Below, one piece after another: positions 1 through 12,759 of a stretch of DNA of 64,000 bases; within the stretch, counting starts at the first letter, position 1; each line of letters starts with the position of its first letter. The stretch spans positions 1 to 64,000 of the forward strand of contig NZ_JAALCR010000003.1 in the NCBI RefSeq assembly GCF_011065895.1. The letters run 5' to 3'. The DNA comes from Paludisphaera rhizosphaerae. Lineage in GTDB: Bacteria > Planctomycetota > Planctomycetia > Isosphaerales > Isosphaeraceae. The position numbers and the translations under genes were made by a program. The notes below the pieces were generated by a model. That model was not told the DNA's origin. It was given only the letters and a program-made list of their open reading frames with translations, and did no database searches.

Positions 1-1425
1 GAGGGTTGCGGTCGGATCTCCGAGGATGACCGTGCTTTCTACGTCTTTCGCGGCCAGAGAGGCGTAGAGCAACGCGCCACGGGCGGTCGGCAGGTCGAGC
101 AGCCTGCTTTTTTCGAATTCGTACGTCTCGCGCAGGCCGCCCAAGGGACGAAACCAGGCTTTCAGGGCGTGGCCGATCGGCTGGTGGAGGTAGAGATTGT
201 CGTAGAGGGCCCGGACAAGCTCACCGGTCAATTGCTGACGAGTGAGGGGGTGCTGAAGGGTCCAGTCGAAGGTCGGCTCGACATGGCCGACGAACGCCCG
301 GGCCGGTCGCTCCCCGCCGAGGAGCTTTCGGGGGAGCGGGGCGGAGACCGGGCCAAGGCGTGCCACCGCCTTCAGCACGGCTTTCGCCGACGACCCATCG
401 GCGATCACTCCGTCGAACCGGTCCAGGCCGTCCCCCCCGGCCGAGCAGCAGGCGTGGGCGTACCAGATCGAGCCGTAGGGATCCCACCTCGCCAGCAGTT
501 TCGCGAGGTCGAGCGCGCGGAGGTCTCGGTCGACCGGGATGCCCAGCGTGTCTCGCATCTCCTGCTGTTTGTCTTCCGCCGTAGGCGCCGTCCGACCGTG
601 GCTGGTGGTGACCACCAAACCAGGGCGGACCTCTGCGAGTTTCTGGATGAGCGCACCGCCACCGGCGTCCGCTCCCGCGAGTAAGTCCGCCTTCATGTCG
701 GCGTCGCTGCTGTACTTCTCGTAGAGCGGCCTCGCGATCGCCTCGCGCATGAGGTGGGTGATGTCGGTCACGGAATGATCGACTGCCCAGACGAGTGCGC
801 GAGCACGGTCGGCCGACGGCTTGGCCTCGGAGCCAGCCCAACCGGCGATCAGCGCGTCAACGTAGCGACTGAGCCCTTCCTCGTCGAGGTCGAGGCGGCC
901 GACCGCGTGTGTGGCGTTGAGGATGTACTGGAATTCCCAGGGGATTTGCTCAGGAGTTCCGCAGATCAGCAGGTAGTACGGGATCTCCCTATCCCCCAAC
1001 CCGTACGTGGTGGCGGAGATCGCCTGCGGTTGGCTCCGGGAGCGAGAACGAAGCAAGCTGTAGCGATACTCCCAGGCTTTGTCGTAGCGAAAAACCGGCA
1101 CGCTCCCTTGCTTGGCCTTGCGATCGGCGATCAGGCGTTTGATCGCCTCCGGCGCTCCGCCGAGATCTTCGGCGGCTCCGGGCGAGGCGTCAGACTGTTC
1201 CGGCAGAATCACGCCCCAGCCGACCCGGCTGTCGGTCCAGTTGCTGTAGTCGGCCGGCTGCGGCGGCGCGAGGTGCTGCCGATCCGCCACTGGATTCGTG
1301 ACCATCCACCGTAGGGCCGTCCCGGCGAGCTTGCCGGAGGCGGCGGCGGCTTCCGCCTCGTCGACGTCAAACCAGCAGGCGTTCAGGCGGAGTTCGATCG
1401 GGTCTGAGGGGGAGGCGTCGGGCAT
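1..1425 (-). CDS. Clan-CD (caspase/CHAT-like) cysteine protease, 3' end beyond the window
   Basis: The frame is open from the ATG at 1425 to the window edge, giving 475 visible residues and no stop. A beta-strand followed by TTSHGR (His276-Gly277) and a second strand followed by YAHACCSAGG (Cys326/Cys327) match the His and Cys of caspase-fold proteases such as CHAT and C13/C14/C25. The residues after the Cys (GHVEPTFDW) resemble a conserved C-terminal part of bacterial CHAT-like proteins, from memory only. No signal peptide is visible, so it is probably cytoplasmic. It lies 18 bp downstream of the CHAT gene and is the distal gene of a six-gene operon. The substrate is unknown. The clan assignment is fairly firm; the exact family and the catalytic Cys of the pair are not resolved. 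Confidence 0.72.
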   Translation of the reverse strand, partial: MPDASPSDPIELRLNACWFDVDEAEAAAASGKLAGTALRWMVTNPVADRQHLAPPQPADYSNWTDSRVGWGVILPEQSDASPGAAEDLGGAPEAIKRLIADRKAKQGSVPVFRYDKAWEYRYSLLRSRSRSQPQAISATTYGLGDREIPYYLLICGTPEQIPWEFQYILNATHAVGRLDLDEEGLSRYVDALIAGWAGSEAKPSADRARALVWAVDHSVTDITHLMREAIARPLYEKYSSDADMKADLLAGADAGGGALIQKLAEVRPGLVVTTSHGRTAPTAEDKQQEMRDTLGIPVDRDLRALDLAKLLARWDPYGSIWYAHACCSAGGDGLDRFDGVIADGSSAKAVLKAVARLGPVSAPLPRKLLGGERPARAFVGHVEPTFDWTLQHPLTRQQLTGELVRALYDNLYLHQPIGHALKAWFRPLGGLRETYEFEKSRLLDLPTARGALLYASLAAKDVESTVILGDPTATL

Positions 1426-1443: not shown

Positions 1444-2766
1444 TTAGGAAAGCAAAAGCGCCTTGAGCTCACGGATCCGGGCGTCGATCCGCGCGAGCTT
1501 CGAGGGTGGGGCGGTGGCCCCCAGGCTCGCGCGAAACTTGATCAGATAATCGAGCTCTTCCAACAACTCCTCGTCGTTCGGTACCGGCTGCAGCACGAAC
1601 GCCTCTGGTCGGACGTAGATGACCGGCACGGTCCACTCGCGCAGGTCGGCTGGGTCGACTCGCAGGGTGTTCACCAACTCGCGCCGCGTCCCAACCAGGG
1701 CGCCTACCCATTCGACCTCTGAGAGAGACCCGTCCTGGACGGCCGCGATGATTTGAAGAATCTCCCGATAGAACGGCCGGCAAAACACGTGCGCGTTGGT
1801 AGGAGGGACTTTCTCACGCATCCCGACGACCGCAGGTACGAGATGCTTCTGCACCAGCGAGCGCGCCAGCGACGGAAGGCCGCGGGGCAGCGCGCTCTCA
1901 CAGCAGTTGAGGACCAGCAGCCAGAGCGAGTCCAATAGCGCCGGTTGGGCGATCAGGTCGCCGATCACCACTGGGACGCTTTCGGGCCTGTCGATCAACT
2001 CATCGAGGGCCGTGGCGAACAGCAGAGTCGGACCGGCCTGCGACGTCCCCCCGCCCGCCGTGCCGTGGCAGAAGAAGTGAGCCAGATGAGGCTTGTCGCG
2101 TACCAGTACGTCGAAGAGCTGCTGCCGGCTGTCAAATCGCTCCGCGACGACCGGCGCGCCGTCTCGGGCCCACTCCGCGACCGCCGTCAGATCGTCGTCG
2201 TCCTTGGTGAGGACCGTTATCCGCCAATCGAGATGAGCGCGGGCCGGATCGAACGCGGCCCGCAGCTCCTCAAGCTGCGACCGGCCCGAGACCCCTTTCG
2301 CGGCGAGCACCACAAGGACCCGAAGCTGGGATTCGAGCGCCGCGCGGATGGTGGTGTCACCCCCCTCCATCCCCGTCATCCGGCCGACCGGCCAGCGCGA
2401 GTCGAGACCGAGGAAGGTGGGCGGGTTGCCGGCCCTCAGGGCCTCCCATGGGAGATCCTCGACGACCTCGTCGTTCATATGCACGAAGATCGGCTTCGCC
2501 GGATCTCCGGGGCTTGCGGTCAGGGCCGCGGCGATCACGGCTTTGTAATGCTCAAGATTGCGAAGACAATGATCCAGAGCGTCCCCCGCCTCACCGACCA
2601 GGCCAGCCCGGTTCATCCCTGGGTTGCTAAAGTCCTGGGCCCATGTCGCTGTTCGGTCGAGTGCGAATAGAGGGAGCCTGACCGGATCCAGACCCGCCGC
2701 CCCCCGGACCAATCGAAGGATGTGGCCCCCCTCCGCGGCCTCAATGCTCAGGACGATCCGATTCAT
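1444..2766 (-). CDS. CHAT-domain protein with intact His/Cys dyad
   Basis: This is a 440-residue protein. LPWEAL at about residue 105 is typical of CHAT proteins. The catalytic His is in HFFCHG (His234) and the Cys in LVLNCCESA (Cys288/289; alignment with NAC-E-S favours Cys289). CHAT proteases are cytoplasmic caspase-fold peptidases that usually cleave one partner protein in bacterial conflict or cell-death systems. The start chosen is the ATG at 2766. It overlaps the upstream stop in an ATGA arrangement and has a GGAGGGGAG ribosome site; longer open extensions upstream are out of character with the coding frame of the neighbour. The C-terminal 40 residues are helical and charged. It is translationally coupled to the inactive CHAT-like gene, which suggests the two products act together. 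Confidence 0.85.
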   Translation of the reverse strand: MNRIVLSIEAAEGGHILRLVRGAAGLDPVRLPLFALDRTATWAQDFSNPGMNRAGLVGEAGDALDHCLRNLEHYKAVIAAALTASPGDPAKPIFVHMNDEVVEDLPWEALRAGNPPTFLGLDSRWPVGRMTGMEGGDTTIRAALESQLRVLVVLAAKGVSGRSQLEELRAAFDPARAHLDWRITVLTKDDDDLTAVAEWARDGAPVVAERFDSRQQLFDVLVRDKPHLAHFFCHGTAGGGTSQAGPTLLFATALDELIDRPESVPVVIGDLIAQPALLDSLWLLVLNCCESALPRGLPSLARSLVQKHLVPAVVGMREKVPPTNAHVFCRPFYREILQIIAAVQDGSLSEVEWVGALVGTRRELVNTLRVDPADLREWTVPVIYVRPEAFVLQPVPNDEELLEELDYLIKFRASLGATAPPSKLARIDARIRELKALLLS

Positions 2767-4586
2767 TCCCCGCTCCCCTCCAATTTGCGAGTCTGTGATT
2801 CGGCTGGAGGGGAGGCTTCGTCCGCGGCCGGCGGAGCCGCTGTCTCGGCGGAGAGGCGGCCGGCGACGTCGTGGACGCTCTGGGTGATTTGCGGGGCGTC
2901 TTTGAGGAATTGCGTCACTTCGTCCCAGGCCGAGGCCAGCGCTCGTTCCGCGTTCGAGGAGTCTAATGAGGCGTCCAACGAAAAGGCGGCTTCGTGACCA
3001 GGCAGCCGAACCGTCGCCTTGATGACAGCGCCAAGTTTCCGCTGGGAATCGTCGAGCTGGATCTGTTTCTCCCGCAGCAGCCGGAGGTGGGGCGCCAGAT
3101 CGGCCGGGTCGAGCCGCCCGGCGAGTCCAGGCTGCTGGGTCAGGTTGGCGACGATCCGCTCCGCGTTGCCGAGCTCGCCGGCCAGTTGCGAGACGCAACG
3201 CGACATCTCCGCAAGACGGCCGACGTCGTTAGGGGCCGGTCGGTCGACCAGCATCGGGGCCGTACTCTCGACGGCTTCCTCCAGGGCCTGCGCATAGCCC
3301 CGAACGGCCGCCTCCGCCTCGGTCATCGGATCGGTCGCCGGTTCCGACTCATCAATCAGACCTTCGATGAACTCCAACGCCTTCTGTCGGCCGCGCCCCG
3401 TTCCCTGCCCACGCCCTTTCTCCAGCTCGATCAGAGACCGTTGCTGGCCCAGAAACCGTTCAGTCGCCGCCACCCAGCGAACCCGACGTCTGCTGCTCGA
3501 CGGCCCGCTCAATCCTGCCCCGCCGACAGTCGACGGCTGCAAGTAGGTCGTAATCGGCGCCATGGGCGGTAGGGACGGCTCGCACAGGTGACGATACATC
3601 TCTCGGACCGGATCCGGCCCGTCGTTGCCAAAGGAGTCGTGGACGAATGCAGGCCCCGGCAGCCGGCGGGCCAGCCCGTCCGCGAGGAGACGAAGCCCTT
3701 CCGGGGAGTAGTTGTCGCGAGGCGATGCGAAGCCGACCGCCCACGCCCCCAGCCGAGTCAGGAACCCAGCGATCTGTTCAGGGCCGACGAACCGGGCGAT
3801 GGCTCGATCCCGATTGCGGGTCGGAGACTCGGCCAGCGCCACTGCTCCAAGGCCGAGCGATTCATACCCGTGGGCTACGAAATGGACGACGCTGACCGGT
3901 TCGCCGGGCGGCAACCGGTCGCCGATCCACCTCAGCCAGGGGTTCTGTGTCTCCGGACCATCGACCACCCGCATCCTCGCCTCTGGCGTGTCGTACGCCG
4001 TCGAGGGTGGTTCGTAGACCGTCAACGACCGGCCCGGGGCCAGGCCCTCAATCCGACCGCTCAGTTGCGAGAACATCGCGGCGTCGGCGAACACATGGAT
4101 CGCGACGTCAGGCGCTGGCGCTCGGGCGATCTCGGCGACCAGCCTACTGATCGAATCGACTACGTCGAAATTCGCCTTGGCCACGGGCGCGCTAGCACAG
4201 ACGACCACGCTCAGCGGATTCGGCTCTGGAATGGGGGCTGGAGGCAGATAGGCCTCACGCAGAACTGGGCGGCCGAGTTCCGGCTGGATCACCGCCTCCC
4301 AGGAATGTCCCGGCAACAGCCCCGCCGGGCTGACGAATGCAATCCAGAGCGGCTCGTGGTCCGGCATCTCAGCCGCGGCGAGCAGGTCGCGCACGTTACC
4401 GAGAATCCCACGGCGCAACGGCGAGGCATTCCCTGGACGGAGGAGTGCCGGCAAGTCCTTGACCTTGACTCCGAGTTCGAGACGCTTCTGGCCGCCGATT
4501 ACAAGTCGAAACTGAGCCGCCTCGTCGGGGGTTCCGACGCCGACGAGGCGGATTTCCAGGCGGGCATGGGGAATCGAGTCGGACAT
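2763..4586 (-). CDS. CHAT-like protein lacking the catalytic Cys (probable pseudoprotease)
   Basis: This is a 607-residue protein starting MSDSIPHARLEIRL. Like CHAT proteins it has a GHSWEAV segment (residues 93-99) and a His-Gly motif HFVAHG (His239). At the place where the Cys strand should end it reads AVGFASPRDN (residues 283-292), so Cys is absent and Ser288 may occupy its position. Residues from about 370 to 600 are charged and helix-rich, without a recognisable domain. The start at 4586 avoids a 132-nt overlap with the upstream oxidase gene and gives a 53-bp gap. Its stop overlaps the start of the active CHAT gene. A regulatory or scaffold role for the active CHAT is an inference; a Ser-type active site is an alternative. 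Confidence 0.7.
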   Translation of the reverse strand: MSDSIPHARLEIRLVGVGTPDEAAQFRLVIGGQKRLELGVKVKDLPALLRPGNASPLRRGILGNVRDLLAAAEMPDHEPLWIAFVSPAGLLPGHSWEAVIQPELGRPVLREAYLPPAPIPEPNPLSVVVCASAPVAKANFDVVDSISRLVAEIARAPAPDVAIHVFADAAMFSQLSGRIEGLAPGRSLTVYEPPSTAYDTPEARMRVVDGPETQNPWLRWIGDRLPPGEPVSVVHFVAHGYESLGLGAVALAESPTRNRDRAIARFVGPEQIAGFLTRLGAWAVGFASPRDNYSPEGLRLLADGLARRLPGPAFVHDSFGNDGPDPVREMYRHLCEPSLPPMAPITTYLQPSTVGGAGLSGPSSSRRRVRWVAATERFLGQQRSLIELEKGRGQGTGRGRQKALEFIEGLIDESEPATDPMTEAEAAVRGYAQALEEAVESTAPMLVDRPAPNDVGRLAEMSRCVSQLAGELGNAERIVANLTQQPGLAGRLDPADLAPHLRLLREKQIQLDDSQRKLGAVIKATVRLPGHEAAFSLDASLDSSNAERALASAWDEVTQFLKDAPQITQSVHDVAGRLSAETAAPPAADEASPPAESQTRKLEGSGE

Positions 4587-4639: not shown

Positions 4640-6187
4640 TCAGAGCACCCGCTCTGTCTCGACCATCATAGCCTGGCCGCTGATGATCCGCTCCACGATC
4701 ACCCCCAGCCGGTGCCACGCCTTGACCAGGCCGTCCGGCCCGAGGTCGCCGCTGATGCCCCGGTCCCAGTCAAGCGGCGGGCCGGCCGGCGCGGCTTCTG
4801 GCAGGACGTGATCCGGGCGCTGGGCCGGCCACCAGGCCAGGCCGTTGCCGCCACCGCCGTGGGGTTCCCATCGGCAGGCGTAGAAGTCGGCCTGCCATGG
4901 CAACGCGTTCCCCTGGGTGATCTGGCCCGGCTTGACAACCGCCGCATCGATGCGGAACGGAGCGGCGTACGTCGCCGGATCCTTCATGATGCGACCAGCC
5001 TCGATACCCGGGAAGAACGCCCCTCCTGAACAAGCCCGGAGCACCGTTCTTGTGAGTCCTTCTGGTCCCGGATCGTCCGGCGGCGGGCTCGTGAGGTCAT
5101 CTGTGTAGGTCCCGTCGGCCCAGGCCGCCAGGTACCCGTACTGCACCCGCGTCAGCGGGAGGACCTGCTGGGAGTTCGTCTCGTCGTGCAGCCGAGGCAT
5201 CCACAAGCCCGCGTTTGGTTCCGCCGGGTCCGGAATTGGACTGACTCGTGGATCGCGGAGTCGGTTCAGCACGTCGGCGGCGATCGCCGGACCGGTCGCC
5301 GGGTTCGCCAGAAGGGCCCAGTTCCGGGCGAAGTGACCGGGGCGGTTCCCCGAGTGGCCCTGACGAGCCCGACGGTTGACCCACTGGTAGCCGACGGCAC
5401 GGGCCAGGATCGGCTGAATGTCCCTCGTGAACGACGGCGAGGCTGGGGCGGCCAACTCCCCTTTGTCCACAGCGACCTGAAACGCCACATCCTCAAGAGT
5501 CACCAGGTTGAAGACGCCGGGAGCGAAGTCCGGCGGGCCGACGATGACCCACGCCCCAACCGCGTCGATCGACTCCCCTCCGGCAACAGGTTCCACCTTC
5601 GCCTGGACGAAGCCGTCGGAAGTGTCGTCGAACCATCCATCGCTGTCGGCGAATCCCTGGATCGGTCGGGCGGGGTTGGGCTGAGCGGGGACCGAGTCGG
5701 ACGTCCCGGTCCCGCCGACGACGATCAACCTCCCGTCCTCATCTGTGTGAGCCGCCCCAAGCGGGACCGAAACCCCCTGGAATTTCCCGCCGTCGAAGGT
5801 CTGAACCGGCTGGCTCGTCCCGACGAACGTCCGCGGCCCCGGATCGATGATGAGGGCCGCGTTCGCCGCGTCGTCGTTCGGCGTGGCGCTGTTTCGAAAT
5901 CCGGGCGCGGCGAACCGCTTGGCCGCCCCCTTTCGATTGACCACATGGACGGTCCAGGTGATCTTCGCGTCCGCCGGTTTGACCTCCTCGAAGCCGATCA
6001 GCGCCCCAGCGTCGTTGCGCTCGCACTTGTACACACGGAAGCGGGCCGCCTGTCGCAGCAGTGCGCCCGCGTCGTCGCGGTATTGAGACGGCGGAGCCTC
6101 GCCAGGCTCGGGCCCAAGGAAAAAGGAATCGCTCGTACCAACCCGGGCGACCCCGATGGCCGGGTGGATCTCGAAGGTCGTGGGCAT
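4640..6187 (-). CDS. LodA/GoxA-like CTQ quinoprotein amino-acid oxidase
   Basis: This 515-residue protein starts MPTTFEIHPAIGVARVG, the hallmark N-terminus of the L-lysine 6-oxidase/glycine oxidase family. Near the C-terminus it keeps a Cys in RACSGGAFFPGIEAG (Cys386) and Trp452/453 in AWWPAQRPD, about 66 residues apart. This matches the Cys-Trp pair that becomes cysteine tryptophylquinone in LodA (Cys516/Trp581). Family members oxidise a free amino acid with release of ammonia and H2O2. The protein is shorter than LodA (about 726 aa). The ATG at 6187 has GGGGAG 7 nt upstream; a TTG at 6202 is possible but less likely. No Sec signal is seen. A LodB-like flavoprotein at 8795-9952 could make the cofactor. 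The substrate cannot be read from the sequence. Confidence 0.85.
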   Translation of the reverse strand: MPTTFEIHPAIGVARVGTSDSFFLGPEPGEAPPSQYRDDAGALLRQAARFRVYKCERNDAGALIGFEEVKPADAKITWTVHVVNRKGAAKRFAAPGFRNSATPNDDAANAALIIDPGPRTFVGTSQPVQTFDGGKFQGVSVPLGAAHTDEDGRLIVVGGTGTSDSVPAQPNPARPIQGFADSDGWFDDTSDGFVQAKVEPVAGGESIDAVGAWVIVGPPDFAPGVFNLVTLEDVAFQVAVDKGELAAPASPSFTRDIQPILARAVGYQWVNRRARQGHSGNRPGHFARNWALLANPATGPAIAADVLNRLRDPRVSPIPDPAEPNAGLWMPRLHDETNSQQVLPLTRVQYGYLAAWADGTYTDDLTSPPPDDPGPEGLTRTVLRACSGGAFFPGIEAGRIMKDPATYAAPFRIDAAVVKPGQITQGNALPWQADFYACRWEPHGGGGNGLAWWPAQRPDHVLPEAAPAGPPLDWDRGISGDLGPDGLVKAWHRLGVIVERIISGQAMMVETERVL

Positions 6188-6232: not shown

Positions 6233-7429
6233 TCAATTCGGCTTCGCGGCCTGGAGGTTGTCTCGGACCATCGTGACGGACGTAACGACGCCGCCGAACC
6301 CGGGATCGCCCGTCGGCGTGGCCGCGTACTTCGCGGCTAGCGTCGTCGCGTCGTCGATCTCCTGGGTGAGCTTCTCGATGATGACCGCCCAGGCCACCTT
6401 CGGGATTGCGGAGAGCCGGTACTGCCCGTAGAACTCGAAACTCGGCCCCGCCGTTTCGCCGTCATCCTCTCCCTCGATGGCTGGCAGCCCGGTCAGCAGC
6501 AAGGCCAACGGCTTGATCACGAACTTCATCAGGTCGATCAGGGCGCCGTTCAACACTTCCCGCTGCTCGGCCGACTCGCCCCCGAAGGCGAAGTACTGCT
6601 GGAAGACCAGAATCATGGAGGTGTAAAGACAGTTGAACAGCTCGACGGCGGCCCGTGTGTCGAGGTTCGTAATGAGGTTTCCGCCTGTAACCCCTCGGTG
6701 GGTGCGGGTCAACGGATTCTTCAATACCTTTCGAGCCGGGTCGAAACTCGGATTGGCGGCCACCTCGGCTCTCAATTCACTCAGAACGCCGAAGAAGACG
6801 TGATAGTGGGAGTACTCCGTGGGATCCTCGTAGGCCTCCCCCTCGGCCATGAGAGAGGTCAGGGCTGCAACCGCCTGGTCCCGGTTGTCCGCCCGATCGG
6901 GGTGGACTGGCCCACCGATCAGGTCGACGTCCTGGGACGCGGTGTTGAGGAACAGTTGGGCCTCGGGCAGAGTCTGGAACGCCTCAATGATCTCCGCGTA
7001 CAATTCTCCCACGTGCTTGTAAGAGATCTCCTCGGGAGCCAGGGCGGCCTCCGGCCCCGGAGCCTTCTCGTTCTGCTCGAATCGGACGAACCGGGAGAGC
7101 GAGTCGTCTCCGAATCGCTCCAACTCGAACGGGATGTCGGGCGGATAGAACTTGGGCGGTTGCGGGAAGTTCGGGCGTTGGAAGTGTGGGGCGCCGCCGA
7201 TCGCCGAGAGCAGGTTCGTGACCGTCGCCAGGTGCTCCATCTCCTCCTTGGCGATGCGGACGATCTTAAGACGCCACTGGTTGAGCTTGGCCTTCTGAGA
7301 GGCCGTCAGCGTGGGATCGTTCGGAGGCTTCATGGAGTAGACCGCGAACAGGTACTGGCAAGCCAGCCCGTGTTCGAGTTCGGACGCCTCCGTCAGCGCC
7401 ATCAGCAATTCTTCTCGAGTCTTGATCAT
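6233..7429 (-). CDS. VioB/RebD-type ferritin-like protein (iminophenyl-pyruvate dimer synthase domain)
   Basis: This is a 398-residue protein. The start (MIKTREELLMALTEASELEHGLACQYLF) and IAKEEMEHLATVTNLLSAIGG at residues 59-79 match the ferritin-like domain found at the end of VioB/RebD-type enzymes. Metal ligands expected for a di-iron four-helix bundle are visible: Glu19, Glu63-x-x-His66, a Glu in the third helix (ELYAEIIEAF) and Glu-x-x-His in EYSHYHVFF. In violacein synthesis VioB couples two imines made by an amino-acid oxidase. Here the gene lies 45 bp upstream of an amino-acid oxidase gene, so action on the oxidase product is a reasonable inference. The large N-terminal catalytic part of VioB is missing, so dimer synthesis itself is not established. 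Confidence 0.75.
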   Translation of the reverse strand: MIKTREELLMALTEASELEHGLACQYLFAVYSMKPPNDPTLTASQKAKLNQWRLKIVRIAKEEMEHLATVTNLLSAIGGAPHFQRPNFPQPPKFYPPDIPFELERFGDDSLSRFVRFEQNEKAPGPEAALAPEEISYKHVGELYAEIIEAFQTLPEAQLFLNTASQDVDLIGGPVHPDRADNRDQAVAALTSLMAEGEAYEDPTEYSHYHVFFGVLSELRAEVAANPSFDPARKVLKNPLTRTHRGVTGGNLITNLDTRAAVELFNCLYTSMILVFQQYFAFGGESAEQREVLNGALIDLMKFVIKPLALLLTGLPAIEGEDDGETAGPSFEFYGQYRLSAIPKVAWAVIIEKLTQEIDDATTLAAKYAATPTGDPGFGGVVTSVTMVRDNLQAAKPN

Positions 7430-7452: not shown

Positions 7453-8556
7453 TCAAGGGGCCGAGTCGATCCGCACGACGCGGCCGTCCAAGGTCAGCAG
7501 GTAGAGCTCGCCCACCGCATCCTCGCCGAACGAGGAGATGCCGGAGATCGTGCCGCCCGGCAGGATCTCGTCGGTCCGTTCGGTGTGCTCAGCGACAGTC
7601 GCGCCGTCGAACTTCAGCGACCAGATCGGGCCGGTCGTGTCGGCGAAGAAATAGGTTCCCTCCAGTCCCGAGATCGCCTCCCCGCGATACACATATCCGC
7701 CGATGATCGCCACGCCGTCGTTGTGAGTGTATTCGAAGAAGGGGTCGACTGCGTCGGACGGGACCGGGTCGCCGACGCCGGGAGTCCGCTTCGTGCCCTC
7801 TTTCGGACGCCAGCCGTAGTTGACGCCGCCTGCCGCTCCGGCCTTCTGGAAGTTCAGTTCCTCCCGCTGGTCCTGCCCGACGTCGCCGATGTAGAGATCG
7901 CCGGTCTTACGGTCGAAACTGTTCCGCCAGGGATTCCGAAGCCCGTAGGCCCAGATCTCGCCCCGGGCGCCGGCGGTGTTCACGAAAGGGTTGCTCGTGG
8001 GAATGGCGTAGTTTCGATCGGAGTCGCCGGGAAAGTCATCGCCGTTGACGTCGAGACGGAGCATCTTCCCTAGCAATTCCCCCTTGTTCTGGGCCCGGTT
8101 GCCCGGGTCGTTCCCGGAACCTCCATCCCCCAACGCCGCGTAGAGGAAGCCGTCTGGGCCGAACCCCAGCCACCCGCCGTTATGGTTCGGAAACGGCTGG
8201 GGGGAGCCAAGGAGCGGGAGAATGCTCGCAGGGTCAGCCACGTCCGGGTCGGACGACACCGTGTAGCGGCGGAGACTCGTCGCCCCGCCGACTACAGTGC
8301 AATTCACATAGAAGAATCCGTTCGTAGCATAGTCAGGGTGGAACGCCAGGCCGAGCAGCCCGCGTTCACCGCCGCCGCTCAGCCCCGCGATGGTCAGGAA
8401 CGGCCGATCGACGACCTTGCCCGTGCTCCGACGGATAATTCGAATGCTCCCGGTCTGTTCGACTACGAACAGGCGGTCTTCGTCCCCGGGCGGGGCGGTC
8501 AGGAAAACCGGACGCGACAGCGTCGTTGTGATCTCCGTCCCGATGAGTTTGGGCAT
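7453..8556 (-). CDS. Soluble PQQ-type sugar dehydrogenase-like beta-propeller
   Basis: This 367-residue protein matches the glucose/sorbosone dehydrogenase (GdhB/HHIP-like) family. Blade motifs include GERGLLGLAFHPDYATNG, YAALGDGGSGNDPGNRAQN, EIWAYGLRNPWRNSFD and YIGDVGQDQREELN; the Arg-rich LRNPWR and the Asp/Gly loops are the usual PQQ/Ca binding region. The ATG at 8556 has GAGGTGG 4 nt upstream and gives a compact N-terminus (MPKLIGTEITTTLSRPVF) without a signal peptide. This is unusual because most relatives are periplasmic. It is the first gene of the minus-strand operon, 23 bp before the VioB-like gene. The link between sugar oxidation and the downstream oxidase and proteases is unexplained, and some family members do not bind PQQ. 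Confidence 0.8.
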   Translation of the reverse strand: MPKLIGTEITTTLSRPVFLTAPPGDEDRLFVVEQTGSIRIIRRSTGKVVDRPFLTIAGLSGGGERGLLGLAFHPDYATNGFFYVNCTVVGGATSLRRYTVSSDPDVADPASILPLLGSPQPFPNHNGGWLGFGPDGFLYAALGDGGSGNDPGNRAQNKGELLGKMLRLDVNGDDFPGDSDRNYAIPTSNPFVNTAGARGEIWAYGLRNPWRNSFDRKTGDLYIGDVGQDQREELNFQKAGAAGGVNYGWRPKEGTKRTPGVGDPVPSDAVDPFFEYTHNDGVAIIGGYVYRGEAISGLEGTYFFADTTGPIWSLKFDGATVAEHTERTDEILPGGTISGISSFGEDAVGELYLLTLDGRVVRIDSAP

Positions 8557-8794
8557 GACGCCACCTCGTCGCTTGAATAAGGACGCATGCTGCGGAGATT
8601 TTGTTACAGCGCCTCTCGACCCAGACAGAGGAGCGAGCGTAGGTTCTAACAAGGCTGGAAACCGACAGGCAACAAAATAACTAGATTGACGACTAGATTT
8701 ACCGAAACGGGCGGGCGCTTGCTGGTAAAGTTAATATCTATTAGTACAAAAACGCGCCTCCACTCGTCGCAAAGCCCTCCAGAAAGCGAGCTTC
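8557..8794. promoter_or_regulatory. Divergent promoter region of the oxidase/CHAT operon and the lodB-like gene
   Basis: This is the only gap between the divergent transcription units and is clearly AT-rich at 8671-8750, unlike the flanking genes. TTGACG is present at 8686-8691, and TAATAT/TAGTAC-like boxes lie at 8732-8747. No pair with ideal spacing could be fixed on either strand, so the promoters are not assigned to exact positions. A shared regulator for both directions is plausible. Confidence 0.5.
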
Positions 8795-9952
8795 ATGCCA
8801 AACCAGTCGAGCGGAGAATGCTCTGATGACGACCAATCCGGTTACGGGATTCGGCTGGACGTTGGATCGGTTTACGACGCCGTGGTGTTCGGCGGAGGTC
8901 CGGCGGGCGCCGCCGCGGCGCTCGAGCTAACCCGCCGAGGTGCGACGGTAATCCTTCTAGAGCGGTCTCGCTACGACCTTCGCCGGGTCGGTGAGACCCT
9001 CTCTCCAGAGGCGGCGGGATGGCTCGTACGACTCGGTCTGGGGAACGCCGTCCCCGCCCGCCACGGCCTGCCCTCGCCCGGGGTGGTCGCCGCTTGGGAC
9101 TCGGACGAACCGGTCGAGACTGATTTCCTCTTTGCGGCTCGCGGGCATGGCTGGCACGTGGATCGGACCCGTTTCGACGCCGATCTCGTCGATGCCGCAG
9201 AGGCCGCAGGGGCTCAGGTGTTTCGGGGAGCCCGGCCCCGTGACTTCCGTCGAGCAGGGCATGGTTGGCGTGTGAACGTCGAGATCGGGGGCCGCGGAGT
9301 CGAACTCTCCGCCCGATGGCTGCTCGACGCCACAGGCCGCGCCGGGTGGCTCACGCGACGACTGGGTGTAAAACCGGACCTGACCGACCCATTGATCGCC
9401 GTTGTCGCCCGGTTCGACCATGCAATAGGTCCCGATCGGCGTCTCCTCGTCGAGGCCGTCCTCGGCGGTTGGTGGTATCTCGCCCCGCTGCCCGACGCGC
9501 GAGGAGTGGCGGTCTTCCTCACGGACGCGGACCTGCTCCGGCCCGAGGGCGCGGTAAGCGCCTGGAAGCGCGGACTGTCAGCATCTCGGCTGATCCACGA
9601 GCGGTTGGGAGAAGGTCGCCCTGCCGAAGTTCGCGTCGTGGCCGCCGGAACTCGCTGGACCGGAACCGTGGCCGGCCCCGGCTGGCTGGCGATCGGGGAC
9701 TCGACCTTGGCCCATGACCCGCTGACCGGCTCTGGCGTTGGCCAGGCCCTTGCCGCTGGTTGGGAAGGTGCCGCGGCCGTTGCCTCGACCGACGACGGCG
9801 ACGCCGATGCCATCCCCGAGTATCAGCGGTCGGCCGAAGCGAAGTTCGGCGAGTACATCCGACAGTGCCGAGCGATGTACCGACGGGCTGCTCGTTGGCC
9901 GACCGATCCATTTTGGAGTCGACGGCTCGCGGCCGGAGATCATTCGGTGTAG
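8795..9952 (+). CDS. LodB/GoxB-like FAD-dependent oxidoreductase
   Basis: This 385-residue flavoprotein belongs to the geranylgeranyl-reductase/tryptophan-halogenase superfamily. The FAD-binding Rossmann motif VFGGGPAGAAAALELTRRG is at about residues 31-49. The second FAD motif, GWLAIGDSTLAHDPLTGSG, lies at about residue 295. LodB and GoxB are flavoproteins needed to build the tryptophylquinone of LodA and GoxA, and normally sit beside the oxidase gene. Here it is divergent from the operon with the LodA-like gene, with two genes (sugar dehydrogenase-like and VioB-like) lying between. That context makes the maturation role likely. The first 25 residues are not conserved-looking, so the true start may be slightly downstream of 8795. 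Confidence 0.78.
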   Translation: MPNQSSGECSDDDQSGYGIRLDVGSVYDAVVFGGGPAGAAAALELTRRGATVILLERSRYDLRRVGETLSPEAAGWLVRLGLGNAVPARHGLPSPGVVAAWDSDEPVETDFLFAARGHGWHVDRTRFDADLVDAAEAAGAQVFRGARPRDFRRAGHGWRVNVEIGGRGVELSARWLLDATGRAGWLTRRLGVKPDLTDPLIAVVARFDHAIGPDRRLLVEAVLGGWWYLAPLPDARGVAVFLTDADLLRPEGAVSAWKRGLSASRLIHERLGEGRPAEVRVVAAGTRWTGTVAGPGWLAIGDSTLAHDPLTGSGVGQALAAGWEGAAAVASTDDGDADAIPEYQRSAEAKFGEYIRQCRAMYRRAARWPTDPFWSRRLAAGDHSV

Positions 9953-10713
9953 GACTCCATCATGCGTCGTCCAGCCGATTCGCCGCCCAGCGTGGACCTG
10001 CGACGGGAGTCGCCGCCGATTCGGTGGATTCGCCCTCGTGAACTGGGTAAGTCCTGGACCGGTCCTTCCATTCTTGCTCGTCGATTTCACGGCGGGAGGT
10101 CGACGAACTAGCAATTCCGGCAGGTTCGGTCAGCCCCGGATCGAGCATCTCCGAACCACCCAATCGCTCGATCAGAAATACTGATCGTGCGCCATCCTAT
10201 GATTTAGAGGGCGCACTTTGACAATTCGGTTTCGGTGTTGGATTACGCGAGGGCTCTTGCCTCGGTTTGCGGCATCGGATCGAACGAAGCCGCCGAGCGC
10301 GGCCGAAATCCAGATATAAAACGTTGTAATATAGCAATTTGCGTCGACCGACCTCAGCCGTTGACGCCTGCGAGGGAACCCAATCGGACCCAAACCGCAG
10401 AACGATTCGGCGGGCGGTCGGCCACCAAAGTCGACGGCGGGTCGGACCGCATCGACGCGGCTGCTAGGGACGCCAGGGCGACTGGTAAGGATCGAGCGCG
10501 TGGGAAGCTCCGAACCGGGGAACGGCTTCAACGACGGCAGGCTCGAAATCTGGCCGAACGAACCCAACGGAATGGCCGTCAACCGATTATGCAACAAGGT
10601 TTTAAGGAATTCGCACGGGGCACGCTTTCGACGAACGAAGCCGCCGTCGGCGGACGGCGTCGGCGTGGCTTGGGGATGTGGGATCAGCATTGACCGGAAG
10701 GAGAGCGGGCGGC
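9953..10713. other. Intergenic stretch without a convincing gene
   Basis: Short frames occur on both strands but read as Arg/Pro/Gly-rich shadows without domain signatures. An AT-rich patch at 10310-10340 stands out. Two copies of CGAACGAAGCC lie at 10281-10291 and 10632-10642; the same motif recurs in other gaps of this window. A candidate promoter is listed separately. Confidence 0.5.
10218..10246 (+). promoter_or_regulatory. Possible sigma-70 type promoter
   Basis: A perfect TTGACA at 10218-10223 is followed after 17 bp by GATTAC at 10241-10246, which fits TATAAT at only three positions. It points towards the hydrolase gene but lies about 470 bp upstream of it, so assignment to that gene is weak. 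Confidence 0.25.
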
Positions 10714-12759
10714 ATGATCCCGGTGCCGGGGGCGGTGCGCCGGGCCCTGGAATCGCGGTCGCCGGCCGCCTTCCGAAATCTAGGCGCAAACCGGGGTCGA
10801 GGGAGTGGCCCGATTATGCCGATCGCTCACGTCGTCCTGGCGGCCGCTGCGCTGGTGGGATGGTCGGACATCACGATCCAGGCTTCGCGCGGCGATCGCG
10901 GGTTCTCCGCCTCGCACCCCTACGTCGTCGCCATCGACCGGCCCAGCCCCCGGACGCTGGAGACTCTCAAGCGATACGACCTGGAAAGGCGGTATCGCAA
11001 GGATCCCGAGCACACGCTGCTGAGCCTGGAGAAGTTCGCCCGAGCCCAGCCCAGCGCCGAGCTGGTCTACGCCCTGGCCGAGCTTTCCTGGATCGACGCC
11101 GGCCGCAACGAGCGCTGGCACAAGGCGGTCGCGATGGGCCGCTACCTGGACGCCGTCGCCTACGCTCACGACTACCTGTTCGACCCGGAGCTGGCCAACG
11201 GCCGAGGGCCCACCGATCCCCGCTATCGGCTCGCCTGCGAGCTATACAATGCGGCTCTCGAACGGGTCATCCGCTCCGCCCAGGAATCGGGGCCGATCAC
11301 CCCCCAGGGGAACATCAAGCTCAAGGTCGGAGAGAAGGACCAGGAGCTGAACGTCGTCGTTCGCAGCACCTCGTGGAAACCGACCGACGTCCACAAGCTG
11401 CTGCCTTGCAGCGACTTCGAGATCTACGGCCTGGCCACCAGTCGGAACCAGTACGGCCTGGGCGTCCCGCTGGTCGCCGTCCGCGAGAGCGACCCCAAGG
11501 CGACCGAGAAGGCCCCCGGCGAGAAATTCTACCCTCCCGAGATGGCCTTCCCCCTGACCGCCTTCATCGCACCCAACTCAAGGCTCCGCGACCCGACCGA
11601 GGACGTCAACCAGACCCGCCAGTGCACGCTCCAACTGGTCGACCCGATCGCTTACCAGTTCGCGACCGAGCAGATCGCCTTCGAGACCGACCTGACCACT
11701 CCCCTGGCCTACATGTGGTCTCGGACAGACCTGGAGAAGTTCCGCTGGTCCGGCCTGATGCGTCCCGAGGCCGCCCTGGAGCGGGCCAACCTTCTGCTCA
11801 TCCGCCCCTACGAGCCCGGCAAGATCCCGGTCGTGATGGTCCACGGCCTGATCAGCAGCCCCCTGGCCTGGATCCCGATGCTCGACGAGCTCCAGCGCGA
11901 CCCGGCCATCCGCGAGCGCTACCAGTTCCTGCTGTTCATGTACCCGACCGGCGTTCCCCTGCCGATCGCCGCCGCCACCCTGCGAGACTCGCTCACCCAG
12001 GCCAAGGCCCTGTACAACCCCGACGGTCGCGACCCGGCCTTCGACCACATGGTCCTGCTCGGCCACTCCATGGGAGGTCTCCTCAGTCACTGCATGACGG
12101 TCTCCAGCGGCGATGAACTCTGGCAGCTCAACTCGGACCAGTCGTTCGACGACATCCTCGGCCCGCCCGACGTCCTGGCCCAGCTCAGGCGGCTGCTGTT
12201 CTTCGAGCCCGAACCGTTCGTGAAGCGGGTCGTCTTCCTGGCAACGCCGCACCGGGGGTCGGACCTGGGCAAGAACCTCATCGGCCGGGTGAGTACCAGC
12301 TTCATCTCCGACCCCGACTACATCCACAAGCTCCTGAGCCAACTGGTGAAGGACAACCCCGACGCCTTCAACCGCAAGTTCCGCCGATTCCCGACCAGCA
12401 TCGAAACGCTGGCGACCGACTCCCCGATCCTCACGGCGATCCTCGACATGAAGCCCGCGACCGACGTCGCCTACCACTCGATCATCGGCTCGATCCGCCC
12501 CGACGACCGTCGCCAGACCACCGACGGCGTCGTGCCGTATCGCAGCTCGCATCTGGACGGGGTCGCCTCCGAGAAGATCGTCCGGTCCGACCATGGCGTC
12601 CAGAAAGACCCCCTGGCCATCCGCGAGGTCCGCCGGATCCTCCATGAGCACCTCGGCCTGAAGAGCCCGAACCCACGCGACGACGCCCCGATCGCCGCCG
12701 CCGGAGAGGACCCCGGCCTCCCCGCCATCCCCGCAAACGAGGTGAGCACCCCGCGATAA
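10714..12759 (+). CDS. Alpha/beta hydrolase (lipase/esterase-like), membrane-anchored or exported
   Basis: This is a 681-residue protein. The C-terminal half has an alpha/beta hydrolase core: VVMVHGLISSPLAW (oxyanion HG), MVLLGHSMGGLLSH (nucleophile Ser in GHSMGG), FLATPHRGSDLG, then an acid and a late His in SDHGVQKD. These serine hydrolases cleave esters or act as acyltransferases. The N-terminal half (about 370 residues) is helical and TPR-like, without a known domain. A hydrophobic segment, MPIAHVVLAAAALVGW, follows a basic stretch, consistent with an anchor or a late signal peptide. The start at 10714 has AAGGAG upstream; 10678 and 10816 (directly before the hydrophobic segment) are alternatives. 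The substrate is unknown. Confidence 0.75.
   Translation: MIPVPGAVRRALESRSPAAFRNLGANRGRGSGPIMPIAHVVLAAAALVGWSDITIQASRGDRGFSASHPYVVAIDRPSPRTLETLKRYDLERRYRKDPEHTLLSLEKFARAQPSAELVYALAELSWIDAGRNERWHKAVAMGRYLDAVAYAHDYLFDPELANGRGPTDPRYRLACELYNAALERVIRSAQESGPITPQGNIKLKVGEKDQELNVVVRSTSWKPTDVHKLLPCSDFEIYGLATSRNQYGLGVPLVAVRESDPKATEKAPGEKFYPPEMAFPLTAFIAPNSRLRDPTEDVNQTRQCTLQLVDPIAYQFATEQIAFETDLTTPLAYMWSRTDLEKFRWSGLMRPEAALERANLLLIRPYEPGKIPVVMVHGLISSPLAWIPMLDELQRDPAIRERYQFLLFMYPTGVPLPIAAATLRDSLTQAKALYNPDGRDPAFDHMVLLGHSMGGLLSHCMTVSSGDELWQLNSDQSFDDILGPPDVLAQLRRLLFFEPEPFVKRVVFLATPHRGSDLGKNLIGRVSTSFISDPDYIHKLLSQLVKDNPDAFNRKFRRFPTSIETLATDSPILTAILDMKPATDVAYHSIIGSIRPDDRRQTTDGVVPYRSSHLDGVASEKIVRSDHGVQKDPLAIREVRRILHEHLGLKSPNPRDDAPIAAAGEDPGLPAIPANEVSTPR

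Follow-up and report, generated by a model that had tools for sequence, protein, structure and literature searches.

In VMAP (MoxR-vWA) conflict systems, caspase-superfamily domains always occur with a neighbouring alpha/beta hydrolase gene, and approximately 70% of the caspase domains in the effector position are inactive (Kaur et al. 2020, PMC7159879). CHAT, oxidase, hemocyanin and peroxidase are unmentioned in the text of that paper. A pseudo-caspase with a demonstrated partner is FLIP(L), in which the caspase dyad is replaced by Arg and Tyr and which forms a heterodimer with caspase-8 that promotes caspase-8 activity (PMC7586951). That a protease can unlock a neighbouring proenzyme has been established for gated nucleases, which combine a nuclease with a protease or caspase (PMC12799240). 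The hydrogen peroxide released by LodA and other L-amino acid oxidases has an antimicrobial effect, and tyrosinases and multicopper oxidases are encoded in some known lodA operons (PMC4417212). A full-text literature search revealed no paper in which lodA is connected with CHAT and ferritin-like genes.

Here we describe a locus at one end of a contig of the planctomycete Paludisphaera rhizosphaerae. The window, i.e. the whole stretch of DNA that was analysed, comprises 64,000 nucleotides (contig NZ_JAALCR010000003.1, positions 1 to 64,000). It contains a gene for a CHAT-like protein (hereafter pseudo-CHAT) next to a gene for an active-looking CHAT protease, together with the following features.

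1-1425, minus strand: third caspase-like (C25-like) protein of at least 475 aa (SHG...ACCSAG), with a gene truncated at its 3' end by the contig edge
1444-2766, minus strand: active-looking CHAT protease, 440 aa, with His234 and Cys289, assigned by PF12770 score and motifs
2763-2766, minus strand: ATGA overlap of the pseudo-CHAT stop codon (TGA, 2763-2765) and the CHAT start codon (ATG, 2764-2766)
2763-4586, minus strand: pseudo-CHAT protein, 607 aa, translated from the open reading frame in the window
3720-3725, minus strand: codons of Ser288-Pro289, with Pro289 opposite the catalytic Cys289 of the CHAT in the profile alignment
3870-3872, minus strand: codon of His239 (HFVAHG), which aligns with the catalytic His234 of the CHAT
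4640-6187, minus strand: LodA/GoxA-like oxidase (candidate CTQ enzyme) of 515 aa, separated by 53 bp from the pseudo-CHAT gene downstream of it
6233-7429, minus strand: ferritin-like protein, related to VioB (C-terminal part) according to domain searches
7453-8562, minus strand: glucose/sorbosone dehydrogenase-like (GSDH) protein, with whose gene the same-strand run begins
8795-9952, plus strand: LodB/GoxB-like flavoprotein (CTQ maturase family), divergent from the run

The genes for the GSDH-like, ferritin-like and LodA-like proteins, the pseudo-CHAT, the CHAT and the C25-like protein form a run of six on the same strand, with gaps of 18-53 bp. Translation of the pseudo-CHAT gene bore out the original prediction of a CHAT-like protein in which the His is present and the Cys is absent: its only cysteines are residues 130, 335 and 464, and none of the three is conserved across the family alignment. 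His239 in HFVAHG and the strand AVGFASPRDN, which has Ser-Pro at residues 288-289, are both present as described, and the stop codon does overlap the start of the active CHAT gene. The location on the minus strand, the third caspase-like gene at 1-1425 and the run shared with the LodA-like and ferritin-like genes are additions to that prediction. The protein consists of a CHAT-like region (approximately residues 75-310), a conserved helical segment and a C-terminal tail (approximately residues 425-607).

With tblastn, plasmids of Gemmobacter fulvus (E 3e-11) and Bradyrhizobium barranii (E 3e-7) were found to encode homologs of the pseudo-CHAT, in both cases immediately upstream of a gene homologous to that of the window CHAT. 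The same arrangement was found on two further plasmids, from Embleya, when the window CHAT was used as the query, and a C25-like profile search of 392 planctomycete genomes added one more pseudo-CHAT and CHAT locus in a distant planctomycete (G100, locus L028). E-values of the G100 pseudo-CHAT in the follow-up profile search are inflated because this member was already in the profile. Altogether, the census, which covered Planctomycetota genomes and plasmids, contains six loci from three phyla that carry the pseudo-CHAT/CHAT pair, and these six family members represent approximately five independent loci. Relatives of the pseudo-CHAT and of its partner CHAT were not detected in the 44 other genomes of the host family, and peptide-pattern scans of genome contigs with the two proteins gave no matches. 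Phylum-wide searches with the window pseudo-CHAT alone returned weak matches only; the best of these (L005) was rejected, as the plausible genes of that region are unrelated. Searches of PADLOC, NCBIfam and PDB sequences with the pseudo-CHAT were likewise without matches.

The link between the pseudo-CHAT and CHAT proteases is visible by profiles only. Pfam gave no CHAT match for the window protein, and its BLASTP comparison with its own partner CHAT was not significant (E 1.4). Alignment of the pseudo-CHAT family with the partner CHAT family using hhalign (five members each) resulted in a probability of 84.6 and an E-value of 6.8e-6, pairing His239 with His234, Pro289 with Cys289 and the WE motif with the LPWE motif. 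This alignment scored 51.6. Shuffling the columns 200 times gave 21.7 at best, reversing the alignment gave 12.9, and a comparison with the C25-like family gave 15.4. Furthermore, the G100 pseudo-CHAT matches the Pfam CHAT model across the region of the lost dyad (E 1.9e-4), at 21.4 bits versus a curated cut-off of 24. Based on these comparisons, homology of the pseudo-CHAT to CHAT is well supported.

An alignment of homologs at the Cys position had been named as a check in the original prediction. In the six aligned sequences, no member has a Cys at or beside this column, and the His column reads H, P, R, D, D and D, with the window protein first. Since the His is found in only one member and the Cys in none, the pseudo-CHAT is, as judged from the alignment, a CHAT-derived pseudoenzyme and not a CHAT protease. 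The non-catalytic His235 that precedes the position of the catalytic His (VHF, LHI, LHF) is kept in five of the six, as in active CHATs, and WE and other invariant positions are conserved across the alignment. The absence of the Cys throughout and the replacement of the His in all relatives of the window protein suggest a pseudoprotease by family design, in which His239 of the window is incidental and gives no sign of residual catalysis. In addition, pseudo-CHATs are closer to each other across phyla (E 3e-11) than the window pseudo-CHAT is to its own partner (E 1.4), which indicates that the loss of the dyad is old and has been maintained.

The partner CHAT scores 41 bits against PF12770 (cut-off 24) and carries the motifs HFFCHG (His234) and LNCCESA (Cys289), and both catalytic residues are invariant in the five partner CHATs that were aligned. 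A CHAT gene adjoins the pseudo-CHAT gene in all six loci, and the predicted coupling to an intact CHAT is supported in each of them. Stop and start codons overlap in five of these loci (the window, L018, L020, L021 and L028; the overlaps are ATGA twice, TGATG twice and GTGA once), and in Bradyrhizobium the two genes are separated by 22 bp. Overlaps of this kind are the usual signature of proteins that are produced in related amounts, and may point to a complex of the two. Given that the same combination of a dead and a live protein recurs in three phyla, the dead protein probably acts as a regulator or scaffold of its live partner.

A C25-like gene accompanies the pair in all six loci. It overlaps the CHAT gene in four plasmid loci and follows it after an 18-bp gap in the window, where it is 39-45% identical to the genes following CHAT in the plasmid loci. 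SHG and CCSAG are invariant in the C25-like alignment, and distant relatives of the protein are annotated as C25 family peptidases. The Pfam C25 model did not match the window gene at 1-1425 and reached an E-value of 0.18 for its Bradyrhizobium relative; a scan of viral contigs with the C25-like family gave no matches. The five relatives, but not the window, carry an alpha/beta hydrolase with an invariant GHS, Asp342 and His425. In G100, the pseudo-CHAT and CHAT genes are oriented divergently to the C25-like gene and the hydrolase gene. The hydrolase of this cassette was not found in the window genome assembly, and its role is therefore not universal, unless an assembly gap hides the gene. The genes next to the window operon include no identified sensor gene (STAND, MoxR-vWA), and the contig breaks off within the C25-like gene. 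None of the proteins that were checked has a strongly hydrophobic N-terminal segment, which suggests that they act inside the cell.

Other hydrolase genes were observed outside this cassette. The window encodes a large lipase-like alpha/beta hydrolase (GHSMGG; 10678-12759, plus strand) approximately 0.7 kb past the LodB-like gene, which is unmatched by the cassette-hydrolase profile. Cassette-type hydrolases also adjoin a subtilisin-like (S8) peptidase in Rhizobium, Rhodococcus and a planctomycete (L031 8875-10167, L033 9323-10630, L034 8278-9603, L048 9453-10790), a recurring pair without CHAT. In another planctomycete (G413), a hydrolase homolog with an in-frame TAG (L047 9621-11213) is surrounded by unrelated transport and signalling genes.

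We propose with moderate confidence that the pseudo-CHAT is a regulatory subunit that partners the live CHAT in a caspase-type conflict (immune or cell-death) module. The protein would be a paralogue of CHAT in which the Cys, and in most relatives also the His, disappeared long ago and which was retained as a non-catalytic partner. Pseudo-CHAT and CHAT would be made in similar amounts and could join in a heteromer, with the dead subunit docking to, restraining or allosterically activating the live CHAT, as FLIP(L) does with caspase-8. The live CHAT and the C25-like enzyme may together form a proteolytic switch of the caspase type, which upon triggering would act on linked effectors. In most loci the putative effector is the alpha/beta hydrolase, and in the window it would be oxidases such as LodA. 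The whole would thereby constitute an intracellular conflict or cell-death module.

A different role, which we regard as credible but unlikely, is that of a decoy or substrate. Cleavage of the pseudo-CHAT by the CHAT, or by the protease of an invader, would in this case be the trigger and would free the C-terminal tail or the partner. The tail of approximately 180 aa behind the CHAT-like part of the window protein is helical and rich in proline and alanine and could be cleavable, and the similar dosage expected from coupled translation would fit a guard/decoy pair. However, this tail is specific to the window, as the relatives terminate shortly behind the conserved helical segment, and the conserved portion is the putative pseudo-catalytic fold, which is better suited to docking than to serving as a substrate loop.

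The LodA-like protein of the run contains the domains PF17990 (LodA_N, E 8.7e-57) and PF18417 (LodA_C, E 2.3e-24) and scores 222.7 against the NCBIfam GoxA model, which has a cut-off of 750; Cys386 and Trp452/453 are candidate CTQ residues. LodA_N was detected in 4 and the C25-like gene in 2 of the 392 planctomycete genomes, which makes their joint presence in one run unlikely by chance. Two LodA-like genes, one LodB-like and one ferritin-like gene lie within approximately 20 kb of the Bradyrhizobium cassette. In G100, the gene directly behind the pseudo-CHAT/CHAT pair on the same strand (L028, G100:C59, 15598-17820, plus strand) encodes hemocyanin M and C domains of the arthropod type (E 1.4e-26 and 3.2e-20). 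It lies in an island that also encodes a trypsin-like protein, a large ATPase-like protein and a CHAT-AAA protein. A more distant locus on a Nostoc plasmid has an animal-type heme peroxidase gene (L022 4773-6548) upstream of hydrolase, C25-like and CHAT genes. Such oxidases were not detected near the Gemmobacter and Embleya cassettes, with the Embleya reading frames scanned in part.

Two further features of these islands were noted. The Nostoc locus contains two large CHAT genes with STAND and WD40 parts. Proteins with an HEVGH motif and no Pfam family accompany CHAT/C25-like islands in the planctomycete (L028 10946-12373 and 17817-19430, minus strand) and in Sinorhizobium (L023 10086-11474, minus strand).

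With the arthropod phenoloxidase cascade as the source of comparison, it may be speculated that the locus is a bacterial counterpart of such a cascade, in which a dead protease homolog would control a caspase-type protease that in turn switches on intracellular oxidases. These would be of the LodA type, the hemocyanin/phenoloxidase type or the animal-type heme peroxidase family, and would kill through the peroxide or quinones that they make. The gene content of the window, Bradyrhizobium and G100 is compatible with this analogy, that of Nostoc more loosely, and we consider the joint reading rather improbable.

Maturation of the oxidase offers another explanation. The protease pair would then process or mature the upstream LodA-like CTQ oxidase and have no role in defence. 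This would be in line with the closely spaced run that extends from the GSDH-like to the C25-like gene, and with the LodA and ferritin-like genes near the Bradyrhizobium cassette. However, the LodA loci of three other planctomycetes contain LodB and lack CHAT, pseudo-CHAT and C25-like genes within the 18-19 kb examined, while the cassettes of Gemmobacter and Embleya have no detected LodA nearby and that of G100 is accompanied by a hemocyanin-type protein instead. LodA maturation was rejected as the sole role, and we judge the explanation as a whole to be improbable.

Alternative catalysis, in which His239 and Ser288 of the window protein make up the active site of a serine hydrolase, would preserve the earlier suggestion that Ser288 is a nucleophile. 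Both residues are present, and Ser288 is one position off the expected nucleophile. However, it is Pro289 that faces Cys289 of the CHAT, and the Ser288 column reads S, P, P, S, S and S across the family (Ser in four of six), with the His in one of six. Since the Cys is missing in all members and the His replaced in five, Ser288 is most unlikely to act as a nucleophile, and the suggestion was not supported. A decaying gene, as the missing catalytic Cys of a formerly active CHAT might indicate, can practically be dismissed, because the frame of 607 codons is intact with normal codon composition (codon-position GC of 0.73/0.51/0.76, in agreement with neighbouring genes) and the same loss is kept, alongside the conserved WE and other invariant positions, in homologs of three phyla, which together speak for a real gene.

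Compared to CHAT proteases (PF12770; e.g. TPR-CHAT/Csx29 of Craspase), the pseudo-CHAT shows profile similarity, the WE motif and the position of the His, and its partner gene is an ordinary CHAT with a His-Cys dyad. It differs in that it lacks the Cys, in that its relatives also lack the His, and in that it falls below Pfam detection. LodA/GoxA and LodB systems are mirrored by the window, which carries both a LodA-like and a LodB-like gene. The VMAP systems resemble our loci in that caspase-type peptidases adjoin an alpha/beta hydrolase in five related loci and inactive caspase domains are frequent in VMAP; catalogues of inactive caspase-like domains from bacterial conflict systems already exist. 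Unlike in VMAP, no MoxR-vWA pair is found among the genes of the window operon, and the dead CHAT stands alone, with a translation-coupled live CHAT, a C25-like enzyme and links to oxidases.

For the favoured role as a regulatory subunit, FLIP(L) and caspase-8 provide a functional analogy and not a family membership. In both cases the two residues of the dyad are replaced (here in most relatives) and the pseudo-caspase is a paralogue of a fixed live partner, whereas FLIP(L) is eukaryotic, carries death-effector domains and forms a demonstrated heterodimer, which we infer for the bacterial pair. The latter, a CHAT that is dead throughout its family, encoded on its own and coupled in translation to a live one, may serve as a simple two-protein system for direct tests of how a pseudoprotease controls a caspase-type enzyme. 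Gated-nuclease proenzyme pairs share with our loci a protease gene beside the gene of a potential target enzyme; the target there is a nuclease, whereas the putative targets here are the hydrolase and/or oxidases. If the recurrent link to oxidases (LodA, hemocyanin-type, heme peroxidase) is functional, the known repertoire of protease-triggered bacterial immunity would extend to oxidative effectors.
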